NCBI RefSeq assembly: GCF_004803505.1
Contig: NZ_SSWH01000009.1
Span: 62,001 to 126,000 of the forward strand
Reading direction: 5' to 3'
Length of the DNA: 64,000 nt
Source: Arthrobacter echini
GTDB lineage: Bacteria > Actinomycetota > Actinomycetes > Actinomycetales > Micrococcaceae
Position numbers and translations under genes: made by a program. Shown in pieces: positions 14,730-34,039 of the stretch (position 1 is the stretch's first letter; each line of letters starts with the position of its first letter). A model generated the notes under the pieces. The model had not been told where the DNA came from. It did not search any database and was given only the letters and a program-made list of their open reading frames with translations.

Positions 14730-15746
14730 CTAGCGCGAAACCCGAACGAACTGTGCACCCGGAAGATCCGAGAGCGGGTGCTGCATCGTGAGCTGCGCAC
14801 CGTTCATGCCGCTGCTGATGACCTGTCCGCCACCGGCGTAGATGGCGACGTGGCCGCCGGTGACGACGAGGTCGCCCGGAGCAGGGGAAGACACGATCGA
14901 GCCGTAGCTCAGGAACTGCGAGGGGCCGAGATCCCCGACCGGGATGCCTGCTGCACGCAGGGCGACCTCGGCGAGCACGGTGCAGTCCTGGATGGCGCCG
15001 GCGGCCAGCTGGGCCTGGGCCGAACCGAGGATGATGCCGCCGAGGTTGCCCGCAGGAGCAGCTACCACTGCCTTGGACCCGTTGCTCTGAACGTTGATGC
15101 CGGTCGAGCTGAGCTGGAAATCGGCTGCGACAGCGGCTGCGCCGTACGAACCGGTGGCAGGAGCGGCGTACGAGGCGGCTGCGGCCACCGAGACCTGCTC
15201 GACGACGGGAGCCGGGGCAGCGACAGCGACCTGCTCCACGACGGCAGCCGGAGCCATGACAGCGACCTGCTCCACGACGGCAGCCGGAGCAGCGACAGCG
15301 ACCTGCTCCACGACGGCAGCCGGGGCAGCGACAGGAACGGATACGGTCTGGACCGGAGCCGCTACGACACCTGCGGTGGGCAGGACGATGTTCTGACCCG
15401 GCACGATGATGGAGTTGACCGAGAGACCGTTGACGCTGAGCACGGCGTTCAGGTCGACGCCGTAACGCGCGGAGATGGCGCCGAGGGTGTCTCCGGCAAC
15501 CACGGTGTGCGCGGTGGCTCCGTTCGAGGTCACGACAGCTGCAGGAGCCGTGGTGCCCTCGTCGGTGTAGGAGCCTGCGTGTGCGGTGCCCATGGCGCTG
15601 AGCGCGATGCCGGAGGTGACAGCAGCGACGGCGACGGGGCGGCCGAGGGCGGCGGCGTGTGCACGGGCGGCGCGGGACAGGCCCTGCAGCGCGATGTTTC
15701 CGTCGACGGCCGCGCGGTGGCGTGCCGGTGAAGTGTTTCGTGACAT
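14730..15746 (-). CDS. LysM-NlpC/P60 cell-wall hydrolase
   Basis: 338 residues. A long signal region ends near AHA57, a LysM domain (about 78-123, HTVVAGDTLGAISARYGV...) binds peptidoglycan, a repetitive Val/Ala/Pro/Gln linker follows (137-187), and the C-terminal domain resembles NlpC/P60 peptidases with Cys255 in QDCTVLAE and His299 in GGHVAIYAGG. It probably cuts stem peptides during wall growth or resuscitation. Cys-Thr rather than the common Cys-Ser after the Asp is a small deviation. ATG at 15746 has GAGAGG seven bases upstream. A c-di-AMP riboswitch occupies the leader, linking expression to wall and osmotic stress. Confidence 0.9.
   Translation of the reverse strand: MSRNTSPARHRAAVDGNIALQGLSRAARAHAAALGRPVAVAAVTSGIALSAMGTAHAGSYTDEGTTAPAAVVTSNGATAHTVVAGDTLGAISARYGVDLNAVLSVNGLSVNSIIVPGQNIVLPTAGVVAAPVQTVSVPVAAPAAVVEQVAVAAPAAVVEQVAVMAPAAVVEQVAVAAPAPVVEQVSVAAAASYAAPATGSYGAAAVAADFQLSSTGINVQSNGSKAVVAAPAGNLGGIILGSAQAQLAAGAIQDCTVLAEVALRAAGIPVGDLGPSQFLSYGSIVSSPAPGDLVVTGGHVAIYAGGGQVISSGMNGAQLTMQHPLSDLPGAQFVRVSR
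15186..15340 (-). repeat. 36-bp in-frame tandem repeat in the LysM protein linker
   Basis: Four nearly identical 36-bp units encode the 12-residue repeat V-x-V-x-A-P-A-x-V-V-E-Q between the LysM and peptidase domains. The high DNA identity between units suggests recent slippage or unequal exchange. Copy number would set the length of the linker that spans the wall. Confidence 0.85.
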
Positions 15747-15757
15747 GTGTGTACCTC

Positions 15758-15903
15758 TCCCATGCCTGCGGGGTGAGCTGTCGGGTTCGGATGGGAGACA
15801 CCCGGCCGCGGGCAGCGCCGGTGGGCGATGCGGTGCGACTTAACCCCGAGGACGCGAGCAGGAAGCCTGTGCGCCCGGTGGAACCGTGGTTCCCCCGTCT
15901 CTA
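15758..15903 (-). promoter_or_regulatory. c-di-AMP (ydaO-type) riboswitch
   Basis: Read on the minus strand, the leader begins with GACGGGGGAACCACGG and ends with CCGACAGCTCACCCCGCAGGC, the two conserved ends of the ydaO aptamer. Between them are GC-rich stems, including CTCGGGGTTAAGTCGCACCG, which matches the usual interior block. It ends about 12 bases before the LysM gene ATG. Members of this class commonly sit before wall-hydrolase and resuscitation genes in actinobacteria and lower expression when c-di-AMP is high. Confidence 0.88.
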
Positions 15904-16257
15904 CCTTCGTGTGTGCGGACGTGTCCCAGTCGGCGGCAGAGCTCGGCAATCCGTCCGGAAGAGCCTCACGTGGACGGAGGCACTCGAAGAGAATAACCAC
16001 CAGTCCCGGCGTTTGTCACATTCCGGTAACAGTCGCCTACTCTCCGGGCAGATCGGAGCACCGTGATCGCCGGCTGCGGTGGGCGAGGGCAGTTGCGGTC
16101 GAGCCATTCAAGTGTTGCCGTTACCGATGACGCGTGCCTCGTCGTCGGCACGCCTTGCCTGGTCGAAACCACAGAAATCACCGCAGCTCGACGTCGGGAA
16201 CGGGCGTTTCTGCCATCTCGACGGCGGCCGAGGGAACTCCGCGCTGCGGTGAGCGGA
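15904..16257. other. 354-bp intergenic stretch upstream of the LysM transcript
   Basis: No gene is supported here. The part next to the riboswitch should hold the promoter of the LysM transcript. On the minus strand CTGTTACCGGAATGTGACA (about 16010-16028) has inverted GTTAC/GTGAC-like halves that could be a regulator site, but I cannot assign it. Farther right lies the downstream end of the sigma-factor operon, without an obvious terminator. Confidence 0.4.
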
Positions 16258-17982
16258 TTAGTCCCCGCCCACCGTCGGCTCGGCTCCCGGTGCTCGCGGT
16301 TCCTCGGACGGAGCGTCGACCGGCCGCGAGTCGCGATCCTGTGGCTCCTCGAGCGTCGGAGCAACCTCGAGCGTCGCGGCCGGCGACGTGTCTTCCGCGG
16401 TGGGCCGGGGCGGATCGAGTGGAGGACCGGGGTCCACCTGGATCGGTCCGGGCTCCATCGGTCCGGGCTCCATCGGTCCGGGCTCCATCGGTCCGGGCTC
16501 CATCGGTCCGGGCTCCGTCGGTCCGGGCTCCATCGGTCCGGGCTCCGTCAGACCGGGCTCCGTCGGTTCGGGCGTGCCGGTACCCGGTTCGCTCACGCCG
16601 GGTGATTCCTCGACGAATGCGGTAGTCGCACCGGGCGCCCCCTCGACCGGCATCGGAGTCACCCGGGCGGCGTCGGGGGGAAGGTCAGCAATCGCCCCGG
16701 CCCCATGAGGGGTCGGGGACCCGGAACCAGGAGCGTCGGACGCCTGCTCAGGAGCCGCAGACGCCGGCTCGACGTCGAACCGGGCATCGAACTCGGCACC
16801 GGAGAACTCGACGTCGAAGTCGACCGAGAGGAACACCGACCAGGGGACATCCTCAGGACCGTGAGCGGTGAACAGCAGCATGCCGTCGGGTACGTCGCTC
16901 CCGACACGATCGTAAAGTTCGGCGAGCATCCAGCTGGAGAACATCTCGTCCTGACCCAAAGCCGTCTTGCTCTGCCAGCTGGCGATTCCGGCCGACGCAG
17001 CACCAAATGAGCCGCGTGCGACCTGGATTTCAGACTCGGCCGGATCGGCAGAGCTGGAACTCGCGGCAGCGGTGGCGGACCCACTCCGCGCAGCCGGATC
17101 GAGGGAACCGGGGCTCGCGGGGGCTCTGCCTGCTGCACGGCGCACACCGTGAACTCGATCAGCGCTCGCGGAACCATCGGCTGCAGCCGCAGTCCCACCG
17201 GGCGGGGTGATCTCGCTCCTGTCGACAGGCGCAGGGATGGGTGGGGGCCCGGAGGCGACGACGACACCCGTGTCGTGCGCCTGGACCCCCGCATCGAGGG
17301 CGGACCCCGGTCCCGGAGGAACCGTCCCGCTAGAGCCGGTGCCCCCGTCGCGCTCCGGTGGCGCTGCCGGGAGGGACCAGGGCGTCGAGCTGGGGGCCGT
17401 TGACGGCACCATAGGTGTCTGCGGCCGCGCGAGCGGAGCACGCTGCTGCTCGGTCGCACCGATCTCCGCGTCCACGGGTGGAGACTTCTCCACATCGGCA
17501 TCGGCGGAACGAGTCGCGGAGCGAGCAGTACCTCCGGGAACCTGGCCGGCGCGATCGACGAGTGCGTCGCGCGAGGGCCCGGCCAGGGTTCCAGGGGCGC
17601 GAGCAGCGTGGTCCTGATCGAGGGAATCGGCGCGAGCACGATCGACGCGGGCACCCGCGGCGGGCAGTGCCACGGAGTCGATGCCGCTGCCTCCACCGGC
17701 GGAGAGATGGAAGGTGTCCGCCGCGACCGCGGACATACCCACGCCCATGGACACGGCTAGCGCCCCGCCGAGGAAGGTGATCCGACGCTTGCCCCACCGG
17801 CCCGGGGCCGCGGCATCGGCAGAGAGCACCGCTGAAAGGTCGTCGGAGGCTTCCGGAGCGGATCCGGTACCCAACGCGCTGATTTCCCCGAGTACGCGGA
17901 GGAGCCCCGGGTCGGAGGTGACCCCCACCTCGTCGAGGAGGTCTTGCAGGCGATCCGGCGATGGGCTGTCCTGATCAGTCAT
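16258..17982 (-). CDS. Single-pass membrane protein overlapping an ECF sigma gene; possible anti-sigma or effector
   Basis: 574 residues. The first 65 or so residues are acidic and would be cytoplasmic. One membrane segment follows RRITF (about 69-88). The rest is a long, disordered Ala/Pro/Ser/Asp-rich outer region, with a more ordered part (about 330-400) containing GQDEMFSSWMLAELYDRVG and VFLSVDFDVEFSG. A MEPGP pentapeptide array lies near the C-terminus. ATG overlaps the sigma-factor stop by four bases (ATGA), so the two are translated together. Position and topology fit an anti-sigma factor, but no zinc (HxxxCxxC) motif is visible and the outer region is far longer than usual. Function not recognised. 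Confidence 0.75.
   Translation of the reverse strand: MTDQDSPSPDRLQDLLDEVGVTSDPGLLRVLGEISALGTGSAPEASDDLSAVLSADAAAPGRWGKRRITFLGGALAVSMGVGMSAVAADTFHLSAGGGSGIDSVALPAAGARVDRARADSLDQDHAARAPGTLAGPSRDALVDRAGQVPGGTARSATRSADADVEKSPPVDAEIGATEQQRAPLARPQTPMVPSTAPSSTPWSLPAAPPERDGGTGSSGTVPPGPGSALDAGVQAHDTGVVVASGPPPIPAPVDRSEITPPGGTAAAADGSASADRVHGVRRAAGRAPASPGSLDPAARSGSATAAASSSSADPAESEIQVARGSFGAASAGIASWQSKTALGQDEMFSSWMLAELYDRVGSDVPDGMLLFTAHGPEDVPWSVFLSVDFDVEFSGAEFDARFDVEPASAAPEQASDAPGSGSPTPHGAGAIADLPPDAARVTPMPVEGAPGATTAFVEESPGVSEPGTGTPEPTEPGLTEPGPMEPGPTEPGPMEPGPMEPGPMEPGPMEPGPIQVDPGPPLDPPRPTAEDTSPAATLEVAPTLEEPQDRDSRPVDAPSEEPRAPGAEPTVGGD
16444..16568 (-). repeat. 15-bp tandem repeat encoding EPGPM units
   Basis: Eight in-frame 15-bp units encode EPG-x-x (mostly EPGPM, with T, L and I variants) near the end of the sigma-partner protein. 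The near identity of the units and their multiple-of-three length suggest replication slippage under selection for frame. Confidence 0.9.
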
Positions 17983-22623: not shown

Positions 22624-23226
22624 ATGGACCGCTTCGTTGGACACATTGCCGGTGTCGGCACCACCTCCGGGACACGTCTGGTGATCGGGCGGTGGGAGTC
22701 CTCGCCCTTCGGCGCCTTCACCGACGTCATGCTGGAGGATTCGGCCGGGCAGCGAACGCTGCTCGCCCCGACGCAGGAGGTGGCGGACTACGTGGGGGCA
22801 ACCTACTCGTTCGACGACGTCGTCGTCTCCCCCGTCAGCTCCACTCTCGCGTCGGACCGGCTCGTGGTCGACGCGGACGAGTTGCAGGTCTTCGTCGAGA
22901 TCGGCGGGCTCACCCTTCTCGGGCGACTGCTCGGCGTGCTCCCCCAGCGTCTGGCCACCCATCCGACCTGGCTCGCCCTGATCAATCCGGTGGCGTCGCG
23001 GCTGATCACCGGCGTTGCGACAGCAGGTTCTGCCGGTCATGGGCGCAAGGAGTACTACGGGGTCACCTCTGCCCGTGCCATCCTGGGAGCGACGGCGGCG
23101 TGGAAGGACTCGGATCTCGGTCAGTTGGCCCCTGTGAGCCCACCGGTACGCTTCGGCTTCAGCTCAGCACCACCGCGGCCGCAGCTGGTGTCGGTCACCA
23201 CGACGATCCGCCGGCCGGAGGAATGA
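22624..23226 (+). CDS. Conserved hypothetical protein
   Basis: 200 residues from ATG at 22624, cytoplasmic, no signal peptide or clear membrane segment. It begins DRFVGHIAGVGTTSGTRLVIGRW, then SPFGAFTDVMLEDSAGQRTLLAPTQEVADYV, suggesting a beta-rich fold, and ends in a Pro-rich tail. I do not recognise a family or active site. It is divergent from purA, sharing a 198-bp promoter region, and is on the strand opposite to selB, whose end lies 64 bp beyond its stop. Confidence 0.75.
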   Translation: MDRFVGHIAGVGTTSGTRLVIGRWESSPFGAFTDVMLEDSAGQRTLLAPTQEVADYVGATYSFDDVVVSPVSSTLASDRLVVDADELQVFVEIGGLTLLGRLLGVLPQRLATHPTWLALINPVASRLITGVATAGSAGHGRKEYYGVTSARAILGATAAWKDSDLGQLAPVSPPVRFGFSSAPPRPQLVSVTTTIRRPEE

Positions 23227-23290
23227 ACCGCGCAGAAAGCCCGGGACGACTACTACCGGCGCAGATGACGTAGGTTCCCCGCCTCCGGGC

Positions 23291-25075
23291 TCAGGTGATG
23301 GAACGCCGGTTCGCATCGAGCCGCCGGGTCCAGCCGCGTCCGTCGAGGTACTCGAGCAGCGGGATCACGACCCTGCGCGTGGTGTCCAGCGCTTTCCGTG
23401 CCTCGCTGGTCGTGAACGGCTGCGGCAGGGCCGCGAGCTCGCGCATTGCAAGGGCCGGTGCCCGCGGTAGCAGGACGACACCGTCGCCGATCCTCAACAG
23501 GCGCCCGCTGCGCTCAGCTGCTGCCAGCTCCCGGCTACCCAGCCCGAGCCCCTTCAGGTCATGGGCCTCCGGAGCAGCGAAGGGACCCGCGGTCAGGCGC
23601 TTCTCGAGTACGGCGATCCCCGCTTCGGCCGCACCGAGGTCCGGACGCCGACCGGGCAGGGTGATGAAACCAGCACGGTATTCGAGGCCGGCTTCCCGGA
23701 CGACCGCTTCCAGCAGCGCGCCGGCCGGCCCCAGGAGATCCCGGGCCGCTCCGTGCGACAGTCCGGCCGCCAACGGGTCCTGCTTCGCCAGGTGCTCCAC
23801 GGCGCTGCGCACTCGCCGCCGCCACCCCTCGAGCGCGGCCTCGTGCACCCACCAGTCACCGAAGGTCCTCACGCCGTCGGGCACCTCGTCCAGGTGGGAG
23901 ACACCCATCCTGCGCAACTGTTCGACCCGGACCGCCCCGCGACGAGCGATCTCCGTCAGCGCATCCCCGCCGGGCGACATGTCCGCGAGGACTGCGGCCC
24001 GCCGGGCTGCGTCACCGCGCCGGTCCAGCGCTGGTGGATCGACGTCGAGGATCTGCGCTCCCGCGAGGACCCCCCGCCCGCCGGCCGCGCGCAGTACCAG
24101 GCGGTCACCGAGTTCGAGTGGGAAGCGCCGGTCGAGAGTGAGGCGTGCGTGGTCCTCCCCGAGGGGGCGGACCCGGCACGGCACGACGGCAGTACCCACA
24201 TGAACGAACAGCTGTGCGGGAATGTCGGTGAAAGAGGTACCCGTGGTGCGCCGGACGTCGACCGTATCCACCTCCAGCCAGCTGTCCTCCGTGAGCAGAA
24301 CGTCCCCGCGGTGGATCGCTTCCGCAGAAAGTCCGGCCCTGAGATTGACCGCGACGCGGCTGGTGGGACCGATGGAGTCAGCAGCCTCGTTGCGGCTGTG
24401 CAGAGCCCGTACCGACACGACGTCGGTTCCCGCGCTGCCTGCGAGCACCAGCCGGTCACCCCGCGAGAGAGTGCCGGAGCTCAGCGTGCCCGTCACCACC
24501 GTTCCGGCGCCGCTGATCGTGAAGGACCGGTCTATCCACAACCGGACGCGGGTGTCCGGGTCCGGTGGGGGCAGGGTCGACAGCATGGCGTCCAGCGCGC
24601 GGCGCAGCTCCTCGAGCCCGGTGCCGTCCACCGCGGACACGGCGACGGCCGGTGCGTCCTTCAACCCGGTGCCCTCGAGTTCCGCCCGAACGCGCGCCAG
24701 TACCTGGCCCGAACCGCCGGGCGCCCGGTCGCTCCGCGTCAGCACCACGATTCCATGACTGATGCCGAGGGCGGCGATCGCATCGCGGTGATCACTGGAC
24801 TGCGCCTGCCACCCTTCGTCGGCGGCGACGACGAAACACACCGCCGGCGCAGGTCCCAGCCCGGCCAGCATGTTGCCGAGGAACCGCTCGTGTCCGGGTA
24901 CATCCACGAACGCCACATCCCGGCCCGACGAGAGCCGGGTCCAGGCGAACCCCAGGTCGATGGTCAGCCCACGGCGGCGCTCCTCCGCCCAGCGGTCCGG
25001 TTCCATCCCGGTGAGGGCACGTACCAGTGTGCTCTTGCCGTGGTCGACATGCCCTGCGGTCGCAACGACGAACAT
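23291..25075 (-). CDS. selB: Selenocysteine-specific elongation factor SelB
   Basis: 594 residues, the normal length. The GTPase domain starts at once with ATAGHVDHGKST (P-loop, about 6-17), then DVPGHERF (G3, about 57-64) and TRSD (G4; SelB usually has T-K-x-D, so Lys to Arg is a mild change). Translation-factor beta-barrels follow. The last 200 or so residues are winged-helix repeats that bind the SECIS RNA. ATG at 25075 is chosen because the protein then begins exactly at the GTPase; selA's stop is two bases upstream, so selA and selB are one operon. It delivers Sec-tRNA to the UGA in fdhA mRNA. Confidence 0.96.
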   Translation of the reverse strand: MFVVATAGHVDHGKSTLVRALTGMEPDRWAEERRRGLTIDLGFAWTRLSSGRDVAFVDVPGHERFLGNMLAGLGPAPAVCFVVAADEGWQAQSSDHRDAIAALGISHGIVVLTRSDRAPGGSGQVLARVRAELEGTGLKDAPAVAVSAVDGTGLEELRRALDAMLSTLPPPDPDTRVRLWIDRSFTISGAGTVVTGTLSSGTLSRGDRLVLAGSAGTDVVSVRALHSRNEAADSIGPTSRVAVNLRAGLSAEAIHRGDVLLTEDSWLEVDTVDVRRTTGTSFTDIPAQLFVHVGTAVVPCRVRPLGEDHARLTLDRRFPLELGDRLVLRAAGGRGVLAGAQILDVDPPALDRRGDAARRAAVLADMSPGGDALTEIARRGAVRVEQLRRMGVSHLDEVPDGVRTFGDWWVHEAALEGWRRRVRSAVEHLAKQDPLAAGLSHGAARDLLGPAGALLEAVVREAGLEYRAGFITLPGRRPDLGAAEAGIAVLEKRLTAGPFAAPEAHDLKGLGLGSRELAAAERSGRLLRIGDGVVLLPRAPALAMRELAALPQPFTTSEARKALDTTRRVVIPLLEYLDGRGWTRRLDANRRSIT

Positions 25076-25077
25076 CC

Positions 25078-26409
25078 TCAGCTGCCTTCCAGTCCCGGCA
25101 CGTCGCCGGGCCGCTCCAGAGCCGCCAGCACAGCCGTGGTCACCTGTTCGTCGTCGTCCTCCGGGATGCACCGCAGATCCACCAGGCAGGCACCATCATG
25201 GACCCGCGGCAGCACGGGCGGGTCCCCTGTGCGCAGCGGCAGGGCAGCACGTTCAGGAAGCCGGGCCGCCCAGCCAGGCAGCGGCACGTCGGGGCCTCCG
25301 CCGCCGCCGACCCTGCCGTCGTGTTCGACCACGGCACAACCCACGGCCCTCGCGAGCGCCTCCGTGCGTTCGCGAAGCCGCACCGGATCAGCGTGCAGCG
25401 CTGCGACCACCGGGGTCACCGGACCGGAGACCGTGGCCTCCAGCGCGGCCAGCGTCAGCTTGTCCGTCCGCAGCGCCCGGGCCAGCGGATGTCGCGCCAG
25501 CGTGTCGATCACCTCGGCGCGGCCGAGCAGGAGTCCCGCCTGCGGGCCGCCGAGGAGTTTGTCCCCGCTGACGATGACGACGTCGGCGCCGGCGTCCAAC
25601 GCACTCGCGACGTCGGGTTCGTCGGGTAGGACGTGATCGGGCTCGAGCAGGCCGCTCCCCAGATCCACCACGAGCGGGACGTGGTATCGATCGGCCAGCG
25701 TCCGGAGTCGATGCACCTCGACCCCGGAGGTGAATCCGCTGATCCGGAAGTTGCTCGGGTGGACCTTGAGCAGGCAGCCGGTCCGGTCTCCCAGCGCTGC
25801 TTCGTAGTCACGCAGGTGCGTCCGGTTGGTGGTGCCCACCTCACGCAGACGCGCGCCGGTCGATTCGATCAGCTCGGGAAGCCTGAAGCCTGCGCCGATC
25901 TCGACCAGTTCCCCGCGGCTGATCACCACCTCGCCCGGACCCGCCAGCACCGTGGTGGCCAGCAGCAGGGCGGCTGCGCCGTTGTTGACCACAAGCGCAC
26001 TCTCCGCTGCCGGGCAGGCGCGCAACAACGCCTGCCGTGCGCCGATCCCGCGTCCGGACCGGGTCCCGGTGGCCAGATCCAGTTCCACGTCGACGTAGCC
26101 GGCCGCGGTGAGCAGAGCCTCCCGGGAGACCTGCGACAAAGGGGCACGGCCGAGATTCGTATGGACGATGACGCCCGTGGCGTTCAGCACCGTCCTCAGG
26201 GACGTGGCCCGCCGGGAGGACACAGCGGCCAGGATCTGCGGTTCGACATCCTCCGGCGCGATCTCACCCGAGCGCGCCCGGTCCTGGACCTGCTGGACGA
26301 GGGAGCTGATGACGTCGCTGCCAAGACGGGCCCGGGCGAGTCGGAGCTCCGGGTGGGAGAGCAGCCTGTCGGTCCGCGGAATGAGTCGACGCGGATCGTG
26401 TGTGCCCAC
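25078..26409 (-). CDS. selA: L-seryl-tRNA(Sec) selenium transferase SelA
   Basis: 443 residues from GTG at 26409. AAGGAGG lies just upstream, though closer than usual, so the exact start is less sure; longer starts would run into the tRNA gene. SelA converts Ser-tRNA(Sec) to Sec-tRNA(Sec) with selenophosphate. The PLP lysine is Lys284 in SGDKLLGGPQAG, matching Lys295 of E. coli. NATGVIVHTNLGRAPLS, NNGAAALLL and the EIGAGFRLPELIE block are also typical. It sits 29 bp after the mature 3' end of the selenocysteine tRNA on the same strand, perhaps co-transcribed. Confidence 0.95.
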   Translation of the reverse strand: MGTHDPRRLIPRTDRLLSHPELRLARARLGSDVISSLVQQVQDRARSGEIAPEDVEPQILAAVSSRRATSLRTVLNATGVIVHTNLGRAPLSQVSREALLTAAGYVDVELDLATGTRSGRGIGARQALLRACPAAESALVVNNGAAALLLATTVLAGPGEVVISRGELVEIGAGFRLPELIESTGARLREVGTTNRTHLRDYEAALGDRTGCLLKVHPSNFRISGFTSGVEVHRLRTLADRYHVPLVVDLGSGLLEPDHVLPDEPDVASALDAGADVVIVSGDKLLGGPQAGLLLGRAEVIDTLARHPLARALRTDKLTLAALEATVSGPVTPVVAALHADPVRLRERTEALARAVGCAVVEHDGRVGGGGGPDVPLPGWAARLPERAALPLRTGDPPVLPRVHDGACLVDLRCIPEDDDEQVTTAVLAALERPGDVPGLEGS

Positions 26410-26438
26410 AGCCCTCCTTCGGGGATACCAACGGCAAG

Positions 26439-26533
26439 TGGCGGAGGCGGACGGGAATCGAACCCGCCAGACCGAGCTACTCGGTCTCACCGGTTTTGAA
26501 GACCGGGGGGCACACCAGGACCCAGACGCCTCC
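26439..26533 (-). tRNA. selC: Selenocysteine tRNA, anticodon UCA
   Basis: 95 nt including an encoded CCA. It starts GGAGGCGTCTGGG and ends CCGCCTCCGCCA; the anticodon loop reads CUUCAAA between CCGGU/ACCGG, giving UCA. The long variable arm (GAGACCGAG/CTCGGTCT) and long acceptor plus T stem are the hallmarks of bacterial tRNA(Sec). The eighth acceptor pair looks mismatched (U-C), the only irregularity. It lies between divergent selA and selD, so all four sel genes are contiguous. Confidence 0.95.
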
Positions 26534-26575
26534 AGGATGATGCTAACACCGCTGAGCATGCCTAGACTGGCTGCC

Positions 26576-27592
26576 ATGGAAGCACGGGCCCCTGGTGTGG
26601 ATCAGCAACAACTCGCAGCAGTACGACTCACCGGCTTCGCCCACGGCGGAGGATGCGCCTGCAAGATCCCTCCCGGCGAACTCGAGGACGTTGTCAGCGG
26701 GTTGACCGGGCAGAGGCACCCCAGCGTTCTGGTAGGGCTCGACGGCGGCGACGACGCCGGCGCTGTCCTGGTCCGTGACGATCTCGCGGTGCTGTCGACC
26801 GCGGACTTCTTCACCCCGGTCGTCGACGACGCCTATGACTGGGGCCGGATCGCGGCAGCGAACGCCCTGTCCGACATCTACGCCATGGGTGGAAGTCCCG
26901 TCACCGCCATCAACCTCGTGGGCTGGCCACGGGGCGTGCTGCCCATGGAGCTACTGGCCGAGGTTCTACGCGGCGGACTCGACGTGGCCGCGGAGGCCGG
27001 CTGCCCGGTGACCGGAGGGCATTCGGTCGATGACCCGGAGCCGAAGTACGGAATGGCGGTCACGGGGATCGGCGACCCCACCAAGCTGCTCCGCAACGAT
27101 GCCGCCCGTCCCGGTCTCCCCCTGACACTCACCAAGCCGATCGGGCTGGGCCTGCTGAACAACCGGCACAAGACCACCGGGGAAATCTTTCCCGAGGCCA
27201 TCGCGACCATGGTGGAACTGAACCGCGACGCATCCGAAGCAGCGGTACAGCACGGGGTGCGGGCCGCGACGGATGTCACCGGTTTCGGTCTCCTGGGGCA
27301 TCTCCACAAGATGTGCCGGGCCTCCGGAGTGGGCGCGGTCATCGATCACGACGCGGTGCCGTTGGTCACCGGGGCCCGAGAAGCACTGCGCGACGGCTTC
27401 ATCTCGGGTGGGACCCGACGCAACCTGGACTGGGTCCGCCCCCATCTGCGGACCGCGGCGGGAGTCTCGGAGGAGGACCTGTTGTTGCTCGCCGACGCCC
27501 AGACCTCCGGGGGATTGCTCGTGGTGGGCGAGCTGCCGGGCCATCCCGTCGTGGGACACACCACCGAGATACCGGGCATCGACATACGCTGA
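26576..27592 (+). CDS. selD: Selenide, water dikinase (selenophosphate synthetase) SelD
   Basis: 338 residues. It makes selenophosphate from selenide and ATP. The active site HGGGCACK has Cys27, Cys29 and Lys30, matching Cys17 and Lys20 of E. coli; it is a Cys, not Sec, enzyme. The AIR-synthase-like halves follow, with DDAGAVLV, GHSVDDPEPKYGMAVTG and TDVTGFGLLGH. ATG at 26576 is taken because it begins the conserved part. TAGACT lies only seven bases upstream, so the mRNA may be leaderless. Convergent with the nrfD-like gene, ten bases apart. Confidence 0.95.
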   Translation: MEARAPGVDQQQLAAVRLTGFAHGGGCACKIPPGELEDVVSGLTGQRHPSVLVGLDGGDDAGAVLVRDDLAVLSTADFFTPVVDDAYDWGRIAAANALSDIYAMGGSPVTAINLVGWPRGVLPMELLAEVLRGGLDVAAEAGCPVTGGHSVDDPEPKYGMAVTGIGDPTKLLRNDAARPGLPLTLTKPIGLGLLNNRHKTTGEIFPEAIATMVELNRDASEAAVQHGVRAATDVTGFGLLGHLHKMCRASGVGAVIDHDAVPLVTGAREALRDGFISGGTRRNLDWVRPHLRTAAGVSEEDLLLLADAQTSGGLLVVGELPGHPVVGHTTEIPGIDIR

Positions 27593-27602
27593 CGGAAGGG
27601 CT

Positions 27603-28685
27603 TCAGTCGCTCGTCGTGATCGAATCGTGGACGATGCCTGCCCGCCGTCGTGCAGCGAGCCGGTTCTTCTGCGGTTCGATGGTGTACCGCGGATCTTCGG
27701 TGGATCTCAGGCCCGCGCGCAGGATCCCGAAGCGTGTCAGGACCGAGGCGCCCAGGAGCGCTACTCCCGACAGGGCCGCGGTGAGCCGGTGCCTCCCGCC
27801 CAGCAGCACACCGACGCCCCCGATCACAGCCAGCCGCTCACTCCAGGCGAGCATCCGTCCCGGTGCGTCCTGATGCAGGGTCTCTGCGACGACCGGATCC
27901 ATGTTCCGCTCCATCACCCTGGTGGCGATCAGTTCTCCGGCAACCCCCAGCAACGCCATCGTCCGCGCCGGCCCGGCCTCCTTCACGGGAGTGGTGATCA
28001 TGGCAAGGCCCGCGGCGGCGAGGCTGGCCGACCCGACGAAGACCAGAGGCAGATCCTCCCGCGCGGCGTTCCAGGTCGGATTCGCGGTGTCCGAGAGAAG
28101 GACCGCGGTGTAGACCGACAGGGGGGCCGCGAACACGGCCGCTTCTACTCCCGCCGGACCCTCGAGGCCCCGCAATACTCGGCGGAGCGGCCCGAGCGGG
28201 AGCCTGGAACCGGTCATCCGGTCGATCTCCGATGCAGCACATACTCCAGCACCCGTGCCGAACGCCGCCAGGATCCACGAGCCGACGCTCATGGGAGAGG
28301 TGAGCTTGATGGTACGGAGCATGTTCAAGAACCGCTCGGGACGGCCGAGATCCACCACCAGCGCCGCCGCTCCGGCCCCGGTTGCTGCCAGCGCAGCCAG
28401 CCTACTGTTGCGGCGCAGGATCAGGCGCCCGGTCATCTGACCACCGAGGCCGAGGAGCGCAGAACCGCCTGCTACCCCGCCGAGGAAGAGATAGACGGCG
28501 ATGGGGTTCCCCCATGGCGGAGGTTTGACCACTGAACGGCCGTAGTAGGACGTGAAAGCGACGTCGGGGACCACCGATGGTTCCACACGCCCCTGACCCG
28601 AACCACCCCGACGGCGCTTGCCGTCCCGCTTCCGGCTGTGGGGCGGTTCAGGCGGCCTGTAGTCGTCGAAGTCGGAGACCGTCAA
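27603..28685 (-). CDS. NrfD-like membrane subunit of formate dehydrogenase
   Basis: 360 residues. A polar N-terminus of about 60 residues precedes eight or so hydrophobic segments. LFLGGVAGGSALLG (about 67-80), DLGRPERFLNMLR and SPMSVGSWIL are typical of the NrfD/PsrC quinone-linked membrane anchors. It should pass electrons from the iron-sulfur subunit to menaquinone. The start is TTG at 28685, overlapping the TGA of fdhB by four bases (TTGA), consistent with translational coupling. No haem-ligand pattern like that of FdnI is evident, so this is an NrfD-type rather than cytochrome-b-type anchor. Confidence 0.9.
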   Translation of the reverse strand: MTVSDFDDYRPPEPPHSRKRDGKRRRGGSGQGRVEPSVVPDVAFTSYYGRSVVKPPPWGNPIAVYLFLGGVAGGSALLGLGGQMTGRLILRRNSRLAALAATGAGAAALVVDLGRPERFLNMLRTIKLTSPMSVGSWILAAFGTGAGVCAASEIDRMTGSRLPLGPLRRVLRGLEGPAGVEAAVFAAPLSVYTAVLLSDTANPTWNAAREDLPLVFVGSASLAAAGLAMITTPVKEAGPARTMALLGVAGELIATRVMERNMDPVVAETLHQDAPGRMLAWSERLAVIGGVGVLLGGRHRLTAALSGVALLGASVLTRFGILRAGLRSTEDPRYTIEPQKNRLAARRRAGIVHDSITTSD

Positions 28686-29677
28686 TTCCGGCCCCCTACC
28701 AGGAAGGCTGCGGCGGCGCCCACCAGCATGCCGGCGGCGGCGACACCGGCCCGCTTGTACATGCGCGGCAGGTCCTTCGTAGGAACCTGGGGATCCGGCG
28801 GCAACCCGTACACCTCCGGTTCGTCCAGCAGCAGGAACACCGAGCCGGTGCCTCCCACGCCGTCGGAATCATTGGCTCCGTAGAGCCGCGCTTCCGTCAA
28901 CCCCTGCGCATGCAGTTCCGCCACCCGCTCCTTCGCAGCAGTGACCATGTTCTCGCGTTCGCCGTACTTGATCGACGTCGTCGGGCAGGCCTGCGCGCAG
29001 GCCGGGGTCTGATCGTCGACCATCCGGTCGTAGCACAGCGTGCACTTCTGGGCGACGCCGCCGTTGCGCGTGGGTGCCTGTTCTCCGGGGGTGAAGTCGC
29101 GGTCGGTCTTCGGTCCTGCCGTGCCGTTGCTCCGCCGCTCGATCACACCGAAGGGGCAGCCAGCCACGCAGGTTCCACAGCCGTTGCAGACGTCGTCCTG
29201 CACTACCACGGTGCCATGTTCCGTCCGGAACAGCGCTCCGGTGGGGCAGACATCGAGGCACCCCGCATTGGTGCAGTGCTTGCACACGTCCGACGACATC
29301 AACCACCGGAACTCATCGGTGTCCGGCGGGGCTGTATCCGCATTCGACAGGTCCGGCGCCCTGTCCTGCCCGGGCGGGCCGATCCTGGGTATGCCGAGGC
29401 TGACGAGAGCCTTACCCGACTCACGGGCACGATCGATCTGCTCACGGCCCTGCTCGACGAACGCGACGTGGCGCCAGGTGTCCGCGCCGAGCTCGCCGGT
29501 GTTGTCATAGGAGGACTCGAGCAACTGATAGTCCGAGTCCACAGGATTGCGGTTCCATTCCTTGCACGCGACTTCGCACGCCTTGCACCCGATGCAGATC
29601 GACGTGTCGGTGAAGAAACCCTTCCGGGGGTGCCCGCTGTGCCTGAGGTGATCCGGGGATTCGGTCAATGGGTCCAT
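28682..29677 (-). CDS. fdhB: Formate dehydrogenase iron-sulfur subunit
   Basis: 331 residues. Four cysteine clusters bind four [4Fe-4S] centres: CIGCKACEVACKEWN (about 27-41), CKHCTNAGCLDVCPTG, CNGCGTCVAGCPFG and CTLCYDRM...CAQACPTT. This is the FdnH/FdhB arrangement that wires the catalytic subunit to the membrane. A C-terminal hydrophobic helix (about 308-328) would anchor it. ATG at 29677 directly follows the fdhA stop, with GGAGGAG seven bases upstream. No Tat signal is seen on either soluble subunit. Confidence 0.95.
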   Translation of the reverse strand: MDPLTESPDHLRHSGHPRKGFFTDTSICIGCKACEVACKEWNRNPVDSDYQLLESSYDNTGELGADTWRHVAFVEQGREQIDRARESGKALVSLGIPRIGPPGQDRAPDLSNADTAPPDTDEFRWLMSSDVCKHCTNAGCLDVCPTGALFRTEHGTVVVQDDVCNGCGTCVAGCPFGVIERRSNGTAGPKTDRDFTPGEQAPTRNGGVAQKCTLCYDRMVDDQTPACAQACPTTSIKYGERENMVTAAKERVAELHAQGLTEARLYGANDSDGVGGTGSVFLLLDEPEVYGLPPDPQVPTKDLPRMYKRAGVAAAGMLVGAAAAFLVGGRN

Positions 29678-32600
29678 TCAGTTCTCCTCCTTGGTGCCCT
29701 CGCCCGACACCGGATCTGATCCGGTGAGCTTCTGATTGCCCGTTTCCGGTGTCAGCCCCGCGCGGGACTGGTAATCGGAGACCAGGGTGAGGAGCTCAGC
29801 GCCCTGCGGCCGACGACCCGGGACGATGGTGCACGAACCCACCTTGGACTCCTGGATCTGTACGTTGGGATCCAGCGTCACGCCGACCAGGTCGTTGACG
29901 GCGTCGCCGGAGACCACAGCGTCCTGTCCCACGCCCCAGTGGTACGGCAAGCCGATCTGGTGAACGGTGTGCCCACCCACCTTCAACGGTTTCACCCGAT
30001 CGGTCACCAGTACCTTCGCCTCGATCGCCGAACGCGGCGAGATGATGGTGGCCCATCCGTAGGGCTCCAACCCTCGTTCGGCCGCCAGCTCCGGAGAGAC
30101 CTCGCAGAACATCTCCGGCTGCAACTCGGAGAGATACGGTAACCACCGGCTCATCCCACCGGCCGTGTGATGCTCGGTCAGGCGGTACGTGGTGAACACG
30201 TAGGGGTAGACATCCGAACCTCGGGTACCCGCACTGGGCGCGCTGAGATTGTCCTCGCGCGGGAACACCACCCGGGTGGGATTCTGCTGCTGCCCGTAGA
30301 GCGGATTGGAGACCGGGGACTCCTGAGGCTCGTAGTGTGTCGGCAGCGGGCCGTCGACCATACCCTTCGGGACGTAGAGCCATCCTTTGCCGTCGGACTG
30401 CATGATGAACGGGTCGTCGCCGGCGAGCGCAGCAACTCCTCTGGCGTCACGATCCGGGACAGTACCGGGAGCGAGGTCCACGGGGAAGTCGGGCACGTCG
30501 TCCCCGGTCCACCGCTTCTGCTCCTCGTCCCACCAGACGTACTTCTTGCGTTCACTCCACGGCTTGCCCTCGAGGTCCGCCGAAGCCCGGTTGTACAGGA
30601 TGCGCCGGTTGGCCGGCCAGGACCAACCCCACTCGGAGGCGACGGGACCCTGTTCCTGGCCGGGTCTGCGATCGGCGGCGTGATTGACACCGTCGGCATA
30701 GACACCGGTGTAGATCCAGCATCCGCCGGCGGTGGAGCCGTCGGCGCGCATCTGCGTATACGAGGACAGTGGAGTTCCTGCCTCGGGCCCCGTCAGATGG
30801 CACCCGTTGATCTCGGCGAGGACCGCTTCGGGGTCGGGTTCATCGTGCTCGTCGAGTGGATAGTCCCAGGTCAGATCCTGCAACGGGCGGTCCCGCTCGT
30901 CCGTCGAATCGGCCAGTTTCGCTCGGATCCGCTTGCCCAGCTCGAAGAAGAACTTCAACTCGCTCTGGCAGTCGCCCGGCGGCCGCACAGCCTGGTGCCG
31001 CCACTGCAGCAGCCGCTGGGTCTGTGTGAACGAGCCTGCCTTCTCCACGTGGGTGGCTCCCGGTAGGAAGAAGACCTCGGTACCGATATCCTCCGTCTTC
31101 AGTTCACCCGTGGCGATCTCCGGCCCGTCCTTCCACCAGGTAGCGGTTTCGATCAGGTTGAAGTCCCGCACCACGAGCCACTTCAGGTGCGACATCCCCA
31201 GCCGCTGCAGCTTGCCGTGAGCAGATCCGATGGCCGGATTCTGGCCGAAGACGAAGTAACCCTCGACCTCGTCGTCGAGCATGCGCATGACCGTCTGGTA
31301 GGTCCCGTGGGGACCGTTGATGCGGGGCATGTACTGGTACGCCCACTCGGAGTCCTCTGTGGCGGCATCACCCCACCAGGCCTTGAGCAGGCTGACCGTA
31401 TAGGCGTCCGCGTTCGCCCAGAACCCCTTTCCGTCCGGGGAGAAGACCTCCTTCAGGTACTCGTCGAGGCTTCCCATCTCGGCCTTCGGCATCGGCAGGT
31501 AGCCCGGCAGCAGATTGAACAGCGTCGGGATGTCCGTCGAGCCCTGGATGCTGGCATGACCGCGCAGGGCCATGATTCCTCCACCCGGCCTGCCCACATT
31601 ACCCAGCAGAAGCTGCAGGATCGCCGCGGTACGGATGTACTGCGCGCCCACGGTGTGATGGGTCCAGCCCACGGCATACGCGAAACACGTGGTGCGCTCC
31701 CGACCGGAATTCTCGGTGATGGCCCGCGCCACATAGTCGAAATCCTCGACCGGTATGCCGCACGCCTCGTGGACCATTTCCGGGGTGTAGCGGGAATAGT
31801 GGCGTTTGAGGATCTGGAACACCGTCCTCGGATGCTCCAGGGTGAGGTCCTGTACGAACTCGCCGTCCATCGCCGGCCCGCCACTGCCGTACTGGTCGCC
31901 GGCCGCGCGGGACGACGTGTCGGAGCCGTGTTCGGAGCCGCCGTCGCCACCCTTCCCGGCTGATTTGTCCTCGTACGCCCAGGAGGACAGATCATACTGG
32001 CCGGTCTCGGGATCGTAGCCGGAGAACAACCCGTCCAGGTCCTCGGTGTCACGGAAATCCTCTCCCACCACGGTTGCCGCATTCGTGTAGGCGAGCACGT
32101 AGTCCTTGAACCACAGGTCCTTGCTGAGGACGTAGTTGATCAGGGCGCCGAGCAGGACGATGTCGGATCCGGCGCGGATGGGGACGTGCTTACTGGCAAC
32201 GGCACTGGTGCGCGTGAATCGGGGATCCACGTGGATGACCTTCGCGCCCCTGGCTTTGGCCTCAGCGACCCACTGGTATCCCACCGGGTGGCATTCGGCC
32301 ATGTTGGAACCCTGGATGACGATGCAGTCGGCGTTCGCCATGTCCTCGAGCGTCTGTGTGGCTCCGCCCCGACCAAATGAGGTTCCCAGACTGGGAACCG
32401 TGGCGGAGTGTCAAATACGCGCCTGGTTCTCCAACTGCACGGCTCCGGCTGCCGTGAAGAGCTTCTTGATCAGATAGTTCTCCTCGTTGTCCAGCGTCGC
32501 CCCACCCAGGCCGGCAATGCCCATGGTGCGCCGCAGGGCGCGACCCTGCTCGTCGGTGTCCTCCCAGGTGTTGCGACGCGCCTCGATGAACCGGTCGGCC

Positions 32601-32977
32601 ACCATGTCAGTGGCGGTCTCCAGATCCAGGTGCTGCCAATCCTTGGCGTAGGGCGCCCGATAGAGGACGGACATCTGCCTGCTGGGTGCATTGACCAGTT
32701 GCTCGCTGGCCGACCCCTTCGGGCAGAGCCTGCCCCTGGAGATCGGTGAATCGTAGTCGCCCTCGATCTGGACGACTTTCTCGTCCTTGACGAAGACACG
32801 CTGCCCGCACCCCACAGCACAGTAGGGGCAGACGCTCTGCACCACGCGGTCCGCGGTGGACGTTCGTGCTGTGATGTCGCGGGTCTTCTGCGACGTCACA
32901 GCTTCGCCGCGACCGAGTGGATCGCCGGAGCGAAGCTGCCGAACAACTGGCCATTCCAAGAAGCTGAACCTCGACAT
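29678..32977 (-). CDS. fdhA: Selenocysteine formate dehydrogenase catalytic subunit (UGA read through at codon 189)
   Basis: 1099 residues when the UGA at 32413-32411 is read as selenocysteine (Sec189). The N-terminal cluster is Cys50, 53, 57 and 85 (CPYCAVGCG ... GRLCPKG). Sec189 stands in QARIUHSATVPSLGTSFGRG, aligned with RVUHGPTV...LAPTFGRG of FdnG-type enzymes, where Sec binds molybdenum or tungsten and His190 assists. The bis-pterin cofactor domains and the C-terminal domain (VFTTYRLTEHHTAGGMSRW...) follow. The true stop is also UGA (29680-29678), so context must separate the two. There is no twin-Arg motif at the N-terminus, suggesting the complex faces the cytoplasm. TAGGGT lies close upstream; no Shine-Dalgarno is clear. 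Confidence 0.96.
32375..32413 (-). promoter_or_regulatory. Bacterial SECIS element in fdhA
   Basis: Counting the UGA as bases 1-3, GGUU falls at 15-18 and the apical loop AGUCU has G23-U24, the same offsets as the SelB-binding bulged U17 and G23-U24 of E. coli fdhF. The apical stem GGTTCCCA/TGGGAACC is an 8-bp perfect inverted repeat around GTC; an outer stem CTCCGCC/GGCGGAG closes a larger loop a little beyond. Confidence 0.9.
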
Positions 32978-33166
32978 ACCGTGACCCTAGCGCACCGCGT
33001 GGGGCAAGAACAGACAGAACCAGGTGGATGAGCAGATTGACGAATACCTCCCGCGGTGCAATGCATTCCGCGGTGGCGGACGCGATCGCCTCACAGTCGA
33101 TCCACCACGGGTGGTTCGACCTCTCAGGATCTGCAAGTCCTCCGGTGTGCGAGGCGGTGTAGTGGG

Positions 33167-34039
33167 TCAGCCGGCCGTGCCGGCTACCCGCTCGCGGGCG
33201 ACTGTGTAGTGCGGCCAGTAGCGCCAACGCGCGGGGAGCATCGGTATCGCGAGGCGCACCACACGGCGGACGACGGCGAAGGCCACCTGCTCCCGCCGCC
33301 GCCAGGGCAGGGCGTAGGCATCCCGGAGCGCCGGTGGCAGGAGGCCTGCCGCCAGGAGCGCGGGCACTCTCCGTAACGGGAGCGCAACGAGCGGTGGATC
33401 GGGCGCCAGGAGCTGTCCGCCGATGAGCCGCGCGGTCGCACCGACGTCGAGCACTGTGCGGATCTGCTCAGCGACATACCGCTCGAGGGCTGCGTGGTTC
33501 GCGGGCAGGATCTCCTCGGTCACCCCGAACAGCCGGGCGAACTGCCTCATGTCGCGGTAGTAGGCATCGCGCTCGTCGGAGCTGATCGGCCGGAGGAAGA
33601 TCTCCGTCGCCTCCAGTGCCGTCCGGACCAGGGTTGCGAAGACCCACAGGGACAACGCCGGATCGCTCGCACTGTAGGGCGTTCCCGCTCTGACCGACCC
33701 GCTGGAATCCGGAAGAGTCCCCTGGACCGGGCGGTGCCTGAGCGCTACGTTCCCTGATGCGGCACGGACCTGCGCCCGGTCCCCGAAAGTGACCGTCAGG
33801 ACGGCGTCGAGCGTTCCACGCAGGCGCCTCAGCGGGTCGGCCGCGAAACCGCTGTGGGAGCGAACACCTTCTCCCACGAGCGGATGAGCCACCTGGAGCA
33901 ACAGCGCAGCAGGGCCACCGGCGAGGATGACGCGCTCGCGAGCGATCCGCCAGGCCGCGGAATCCGGACCGAAGAGACCGGCATCGCCGGCCTCACCCGG
34001 TCCCGGGCGGGGCGGGAAGAACTGCCCCAATCGCTTCAA
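33167..34039 (-). CDS. Oxygenase MpaB family protein (DUF2236)
   Basis: 290 residues, soluble. The DUF2236/MpaB blocks are present: ARERVILAGGPAALLLQVAHPLVGEGVRSHSGFAADPLRRLRGT in the first 70-110 residues (with the His of AHPLV as a likely haem or metal ligand) and RDMRQFARLFGVTEEILPANHAALERYV near the middle. Members range from fungal oxygenases to rubber-oxygenase relatives; here the substrate is unknown. The annotated start is TTG at 34039, four bases after the stop of the glycosidase gene, so it seems to be the second gene of that operon. The start codon is uncertain. Confidence 0.82.
   Translation of the reverse strand: MKRLGQFFPPRPGPGEAGDAGLFGPDSAAWRIARERVILAGGPAALLLQVAHPLVGEGVRSHSGFAADPLRRLRGTLDAVLTVTFGDRAQVRAASGNVALRHRPVQGTLPDSSGSVRAGTPYSASDPALSLWVFATLVRTALEATEIFLRPISSDERDAYYRDMRQFARLFGVTEEILPANHAALERYVAEQIRTVLDVGATARLIGGQLLAPDPPLVALPLRRVPALLAAGLLPPALRDAYALPWRRREQVAFAVVRRVVRLAIPMLPARWRYWPHYTVARERVAGTAG

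Follow-up and report, generated by a model that had tools for sequence, protein, structure and literature searches.

A selenocysteine-decoding gene set and its formate dehydrogenase client in a block absent from most members of the genus

In Corynebacterium aurimucosum, selA, selB, selC and selD are clustered with formate dehydrogenase genes, in a gene order that is called highly conserved among bacteria using selenocysteine (Sec) (PMC2830990). The locus analysed here lies in a 64-kb stretch of DNA (the window) from a soil-type actinobacterium and resembles this sel-fdn region in its clustered sel genes and in a catalytic fdh gene with an internal UGA. C. aurimucosum belongs to another family, however, and the empty-site evidence given below concerns the window only. 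Arthrobacter crystallopoietes BAB-32 is listed among the recent recipients of the Sec trait; for most donors and recipients, the same account places the sel genes, selD included, and the gene for the formate dehydrogenase alpha subunit very close to each other or in a single operon (PMC5029168). The BAB-32 locus (L037) has the same gene set as the window, with FdhA 85% and SelA 79% identical, but belongs to another genus and occupies another genomic site.

In Alpha-, Beta- and some Gammaproteobacteria, fdhA encodes the sole selenoprotein and stands beside selA-selB-selC, and joint transfer has been proposed (PMC1794560). The window shares this placement of fdhA beside sel genes; those bacteria belong to another phylum, and selD, which is described as evolving apart in them, is inside the block here (PMC1794560). 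Joint presence or absence is also reported for two Amycolatopsis species (PMC4048454). In Actinomycetospora chiangmaiensis, selenite nearly abolished the build-up of formate, formate removal was selenium-dependent, and SelA, SelB, SelD and formate dehydrogenase subunits were detected at low abundance in the proteome (PMC7176365). Like the window, this species has a cluster for a membrane-bound enzyme, FDH1, together with selA and selB; unlike the window, it has three Sec-type formate dehydrogenases, and selD is not assigned to the FDH1 cluster as described (PMC7176365).

We report a well-supported further example of this known type of locus. Our overall reading, which we hold with good confidence, is that a Sec-decoding set and its client, a respiratory-type formate dehydrogenase, make up a block that was most simply gained once, as one piece.

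Gene content of the block and its frequency among relatives

The window covers positions 62001-126000 of contig 41 in a 3.18-Mb genome of 41 contigs that is 99.99% complete. An earlier note on this DNA had placed sel genes and a UGA-containing formate dehydrogenase at 23291-32977, and curated NCBIfam models, ARAGORN and Rfam all agree with this assignment (Table 1). Between 23291 and 32977, the minus strand first carries selB, selA and tRNA-Sec; selD follows on the plus strand, and the nrfD-like gene, fdhB and fdhA come last, again on the minus strand. The fdh genes had been described as an operon facing the sel genes, which is correct for selD only, as tRNA-Sec, selA and selB lie on the same strand as fdh. 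The catalytic subunit had likewise been called split; the in-frame UGA at 32413-32411 is there, but fdhA is a single frame interrupted by it rather than two separate halves. With the UGA read through, FdhA has 1099 residues, and the UGA is residue 189. The motif GGGCACK in the translation of selD identifies its product as the Cys form.

Table 1. Features of the block and its surroundings, in window coordinates
Feature	Positions	Strand	Basis
Left flank, uncharacterised gene adjoining purA	22624-23226	+	Match present in 37 of 38 genomes of the genus
Block, missing from most members of the genus	23236-33164, approximate ends	.	Nucleotide matches to block-less G057 and G203
selB, selenocysteine-specific elongation factor	23291-25075	-	NCBIfam TIGR00475, 282.7 bits (cut-off 242.25), and winged-helix domain PF09107; start about 25075, read from translation
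selA, selenocysteine synthase	25078-26409	-	NCBIfam TIGR00474, 412 bits (cut-off 267.9); start about 26409, a GTG, not certain
tRNA-Sec, anticodon TCA	26439-26533	-	ARAGORN; Rfam RF01852, 77.2 bits over 26443-26533
selD, selenophosphate synthetase, Cys form	26576-27592	+	NCBIfam TIGR00476, 384.3 bits (cut-off 125)
NrfD-like membrane subunit	27603-28685	-	PF03916 (Pfam only), 65.9 bits
fdhB, iron-sulfur subunit	28682-29677	-	Pfam Fer4 domains; best NCBIfam match, FDH-beta, below cut-off (166.8 of 334.7)
fdhA, catalytic subunit, predicted Sec at residue 189	29678-32977	-	TGA read through: NF041513 formate_DH_Act, 1943.4 bits (cut-off 1400), model positions 3-1067 of 1067; also TIGR01553, formate dehydrogenase N alpha subunit, 925.1 bits (cut-off 814.2)
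Upper hairpin of presumed Sec insertion element	32381-32399	-	Fold and silent-site entropy; 11 nt past UGA
UGA, very likely codon for selenocysteine	32411-32413	-	TGA/TGC split between Sec-type and Cys-type genes
Right flank, mpaB-like oxygenase-family gene	33167-34039	-	PF09995

The note had also held that all the parts needed to make and use Sec are in the locus. This is true of making and reading Sec, save for the housekeeping seryl-tRNA synthetase. The enzyme itself also needs FdhD, which is encoded outside the block in this genome and is present as well in the block-less genome G057, so the block is complete for Sec and not for an active enzyme.

The tRNA-Sec gene and the divergent selD start only 42 nt apart (26534-26575), with TAGACT found 7 nt before the selD ATG. 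From reading this sequence, the two promoters may overlap and selD may be leaderless. Consensus scans found no promoter (0.7 in shuffled sequence) and one terminator (3.5 in shuffled sequence). Elsewhere in the window, a c-di-AMP riboswitch (RF00379, 43.7 bits, 15750-15930, minus strand) lies directly upstream of an open reading frame at 14730-15746 (minus strand), and another open reading frame at 16258-17982 (minus strand) has a run of MEPGP/TEPGP repeats near its C-terminus.

The compact layout had been singled out as what makes the locus stand out. It is in fact usual among relatives: named genomes were scanned with SelA, and in the best 80 of 141 relatives, kept with flanks of 10 kb, all six protein genes fall inside those flanks in 71, with selD and fdh standing 0.5 to 4 kb away in some of them. 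Some of these loci are one genome reached twice (for example L037/L175 and L035/L176). Of the other nine, seven are cut by contig ends and two come from Brevibacterium (L089, L104). All 80 loci have a called tRNA-Sec; in the 77 for which the distance was measured, it shares the strand of the selA match and lies between -7 and 87 nt before it. With similar clusters in print (PMC2830990, PMC5029168), the locus type is ordinary, its arrangement being common in relatives and already described, and the claim that it is unusual is not supported.

The two Brevibacterium loci have selA and selB with no selD or fdh in the 10-kb flanks; their genomes hold a Sec-type fdhA about 20 kb from selA by coordinates, if the contigs are the same. 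A 9.6-kb contig titled Acidobacteriaceae (L094) carries selD, selA and selB about 65-79% identical to those of the window, and represents either a transfer or a misplaced contig.

In a survey of 395 genomes of the family, at least 88 are listed with selB, out of 89 tallied above the cut-off, 94 with a Sec-type fdhA and 87 with both; the selB tally is an undercount because only a few candidates per genome were scored. Members of the Micrococcaceae are mostly aerobic. These roughly 90 carriers in 395 genomes sit uneasily with a review according to which selenoproteins are rarely kept by aerobic bacteria (PMC13188914). The note had named relatives that keep the sel genes without fdhA as a sign against a block with a single client. 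Among the listed selB carriers, 87 of 88 have a Sec-type fdhA, and in the sole genome with selB only (G321) selB lies at the edge of a contig and fdhA was not found; this assembly is 82% complete and broken into about 500 contigs.

Seven genomes were listed with fdhA only (G281, G021, G148, G167, G234, G314 and G335). G281 was rejected as a case of Sec-type fdhA without selB, as its locus holds selB, selA, selD and tRNA-Sec. In G021 fdhA is near a contig end, G148 is in about 430 contigs, completeness is 62-79% for G167, G314 and G335, and selB pieces below the cut-off occur in G234 and G314. Eight genomes of the family have a Cys-type FdhA alone, with no listed selB. Sec-type and Cys-type formate dehydrogenases occur together in seven genomes (G018, G084, G121, G174, G186, G197 and G225), which could show when either form is used.

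Two kinds of irregular fdhA were also observed. In genus g22 (G049, G073, G093, G110, G140 and G155), FdhA matches the model in two same-frame pieces, and about 35 model positions near 340-374 are missing or unlike. In G379, where selB is present, fdhA is in two overlapping pieces in different frames (G379:C1:2755339-2758552), suggesting either a defective copy or a misassembly.

It is plausible, judging from four redox families, that FdhA is the only Sec client in this genome. The matches to these families (AhpC-TSA 6, CMD 1, DsbA 3 and thioredoxin 4) contain no in-frame stop within the matched stretches, so the many other selenoproteins that the note had regarded as contrary to its idea did not appear in the families searched. 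An FdhA search of the genome gave one strong match, with the TGA; three weak hits, which fall on two further proteins, contain no stops. FdhA could instead be one of several selenoproteins and the block a general supply of Sec: the search covered four redox families, with stops counted only inside the matched stretch, and Actinomycetospora has more than one Sec-type formate dehydrogenase, namely three (PMC7176365). Given that all 14 redox-family matches are free of in-frame stops, that the strong FdhA match is single, and that FDH alpha is named as the sole selenoprotein in Sec-trait donors and recipients of this kind (PMC5029168), we regard this alternative as rather unlikely.

Empty site and history of the block

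The note had proposed comparing related genomes for presence or absence of the whole block. It is missing from 36 of 38 genomes of the genus; a selB above the cut-off and an fdhA match occur only in the window's genome and in G352. Nucleotide matches to the block-less genomes G057 and G203 stop at window positions 23230 and 23235 and resume at 33165, so the block measures about 9.9 kb. Thirty loci were fetched for a test of the flanks, of which 28 lack the block. The mpaB-like right flank lies at most 1.5 kb from the left-flank gene in 16 of the 28, and at most about 200 nt from it in 14; in 12 of the 28 the right flank was unseen in the fetched stretch, two of these stretches being short. In a tree of three flank genes from 16 genomes the two carriers group together (support 1.0), and the empty pair, G203 and G057, stands next to them (1.0). 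The luteolus and gallicola genomes have the left-flank gene next to purA, and no block lies within 1.5 kb of it; purA and the left-flank gene are both missing from the flanks of the blocks that these genomes do carry.

As for marks of an integrative mobile element, seven genes and the tRNA fill the block, and no integrase or transposase was found in it. The repeats shown, 20 direct families (of at least 60) and 25 inverted pairs (of 122), include none that match closely at its ends, and there is no GC shift at the block.

In the window's lineage the entire block seems to have arrived as a single piece. The roughly 9.9 kb would have been gained once, between the purA-linked and mpaB-like genes, in an ancestor of the window's strain and its nearest block-bearing relative. 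A single gain is the simpler account because the 36 of 38 genomes without the block would otherwise require many losses. The block could nevertheless be ancestral at this site in the genus and have been lost repeatedly, the pattern then reflecting loss and not gain. Identities to the nearest genera are in the same order for PurL (85-86%) and FdhA (84-86%), as vertical descent gives, and the 12 block-less loci in which the flanks are not adjacent in the fetched stretch fit such a history as well. Apart from the number of losses, repeated loss is opposed by the 14 loci with flanks within about 200 nt, by the grouping of the two carriers as one clade beside an empty pair, and by the luteolus and gallicola blocks, which sit elsewhere than the purA-linked left-flank gene of those genomes. 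We therefore find repeated loss improbable and retain a single gain as the preferred reading.

The note had suggested that the locus moves or is lost as one unit; the empty site in the genus speaks for this, and the gene trees agree only in part. FastTree topologies and AU tests were based on 24 taxa, taken from the 30 genomes of the PurL set by leaving out two that are block-less, three without a PurL match and L054, in which fdhA is cut by the locus edge. The PurL tree groups the four Kocuria (0.998) and the sampled Micrococcaceae (1.0), as no block gene does, and it is rejected by all four block genes (AU p ≤ 8.8e-5). Seven Arthrobacter-like sequences, including the window's, group as one clade in each of the four block genes (0.993 to 1.0) and not in PurL. 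Brevibacterium daeguense joins this clade in selB (0.996), selD (0.858) and fdhA (0.983), not in selA, whereas the donor named in print is Microlunatus (PMC5029168), which is outside our tree set.

The concatenated block tree is not rejected at 0.05 by any gene (selA 0.053, selB 0.211, selD 0.125, fdhA 0.077), an acceptance that is partly circular because the tree contains each gene's own data. Cross-tests between single genes reject at 0.05 in 11 of 12 cases, all but the fit of selA data to the selB tree, and fdhA fits the PurL tree better than the selA tree. Counted in splits, the distance from fdhA is 8 for selD, 12 for selB, 20 for PurL and 26 for selA. Split counts and cross-tests together suggest that selB, selD and fdhA are alike in history, with selA fitting least well; a shared history of the block genes is supported in part.

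Transfer of the Sec trait has already been proposed for a related species (PMC5029168). One may further speculate that the block is a case of a general, integrase-free cassette for code expansion, in which the decoding machinery travels jointly with an obligatory client from one actinobacterium to another through homologous recombination, at varying host sites, and the two never persist apart. We offer this generalisation tentatively and consider it doubtful.

The UGA codon of fdhA

The codon was compared across 97 loci with a nearly full-length fdhA, 82 of which have exactly one stop and 15 none. The 82 Sec-type sequences reduce to 79 distinct ones, counting the window's own. TGA stands at one column in all 79, and TGC occupies the same column in 15 of 15 Cys-type genes. 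The UGA is followed by a hairpin, with a 61-nt fold at -24.5 kcal/mol (z -2.60). In Sec-type fdhA, mean entropy is 1.28 bits over 524 four-fold columns, and the eight lowest-entropy windows of 973 (17 codons each, 0.54 to 0.69) start 1 to 10 codons before the UGA, every one of them covering the hairpin. Cys-type genes show nothing unusual in the 17 codons past the same position (1.05, with a mean of 1.17), and their lowest windows are in other parts of the gene. Constraint on the silent sites of the hairpin in Sec-type genes only points to selection on the RNA, and not on the protein alone.

The UGA at 32413-32411 is, from these comparisons, very likely a selenocysteine codon, and Sec would be inserted at residue 189 of FdhA. 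The plain code does end the frame at codon 189, yet a true stop or a sequencing error in a broken fdhA is exceedingly improbable in view of the TGA/TGC split, the constrained hairpin and the complete decoding set adjoining the gene.

Proposed mechanism and implications

The order in which SelD, seryl-tRNA synthetase, SelA and SelB act has been set out before (PMC2830990) and can be applied to the block. SelD would supply selenophosphate, the seryl-tRNA synthetase of the host would charge tRNA-Sec, and SelA would convert Ser-tRNA to Sec-tRNA. SelB would then bring Sec-tRNA to UGA 189 of fdhA, marked by the downstream hairpin. We infer that the enzyme is active, its Sec residue acting at a metal centre that would oxidise formate, and that the iron-sulfur subunit would relay electrons to the NrfD-like membrane subunit, from which they would most likely reach the quinone pool.

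Formate dehydrogenase N faces the periplasm and is exported by the Tat pathway. No twin-arginine motif was found in the window's FdhA, so its active site probably faces the cytoplasm. A simple Tat pattern was matched in 1 of the 97 loci, where it may lie ahead of the true start.

The two close relatives that carry the block and the sister pair whose site is empty provide a natural comparison. Since this comparison falls within one genus, it would allow a test of what acquiring a 21st amino acid costs and what it brings.
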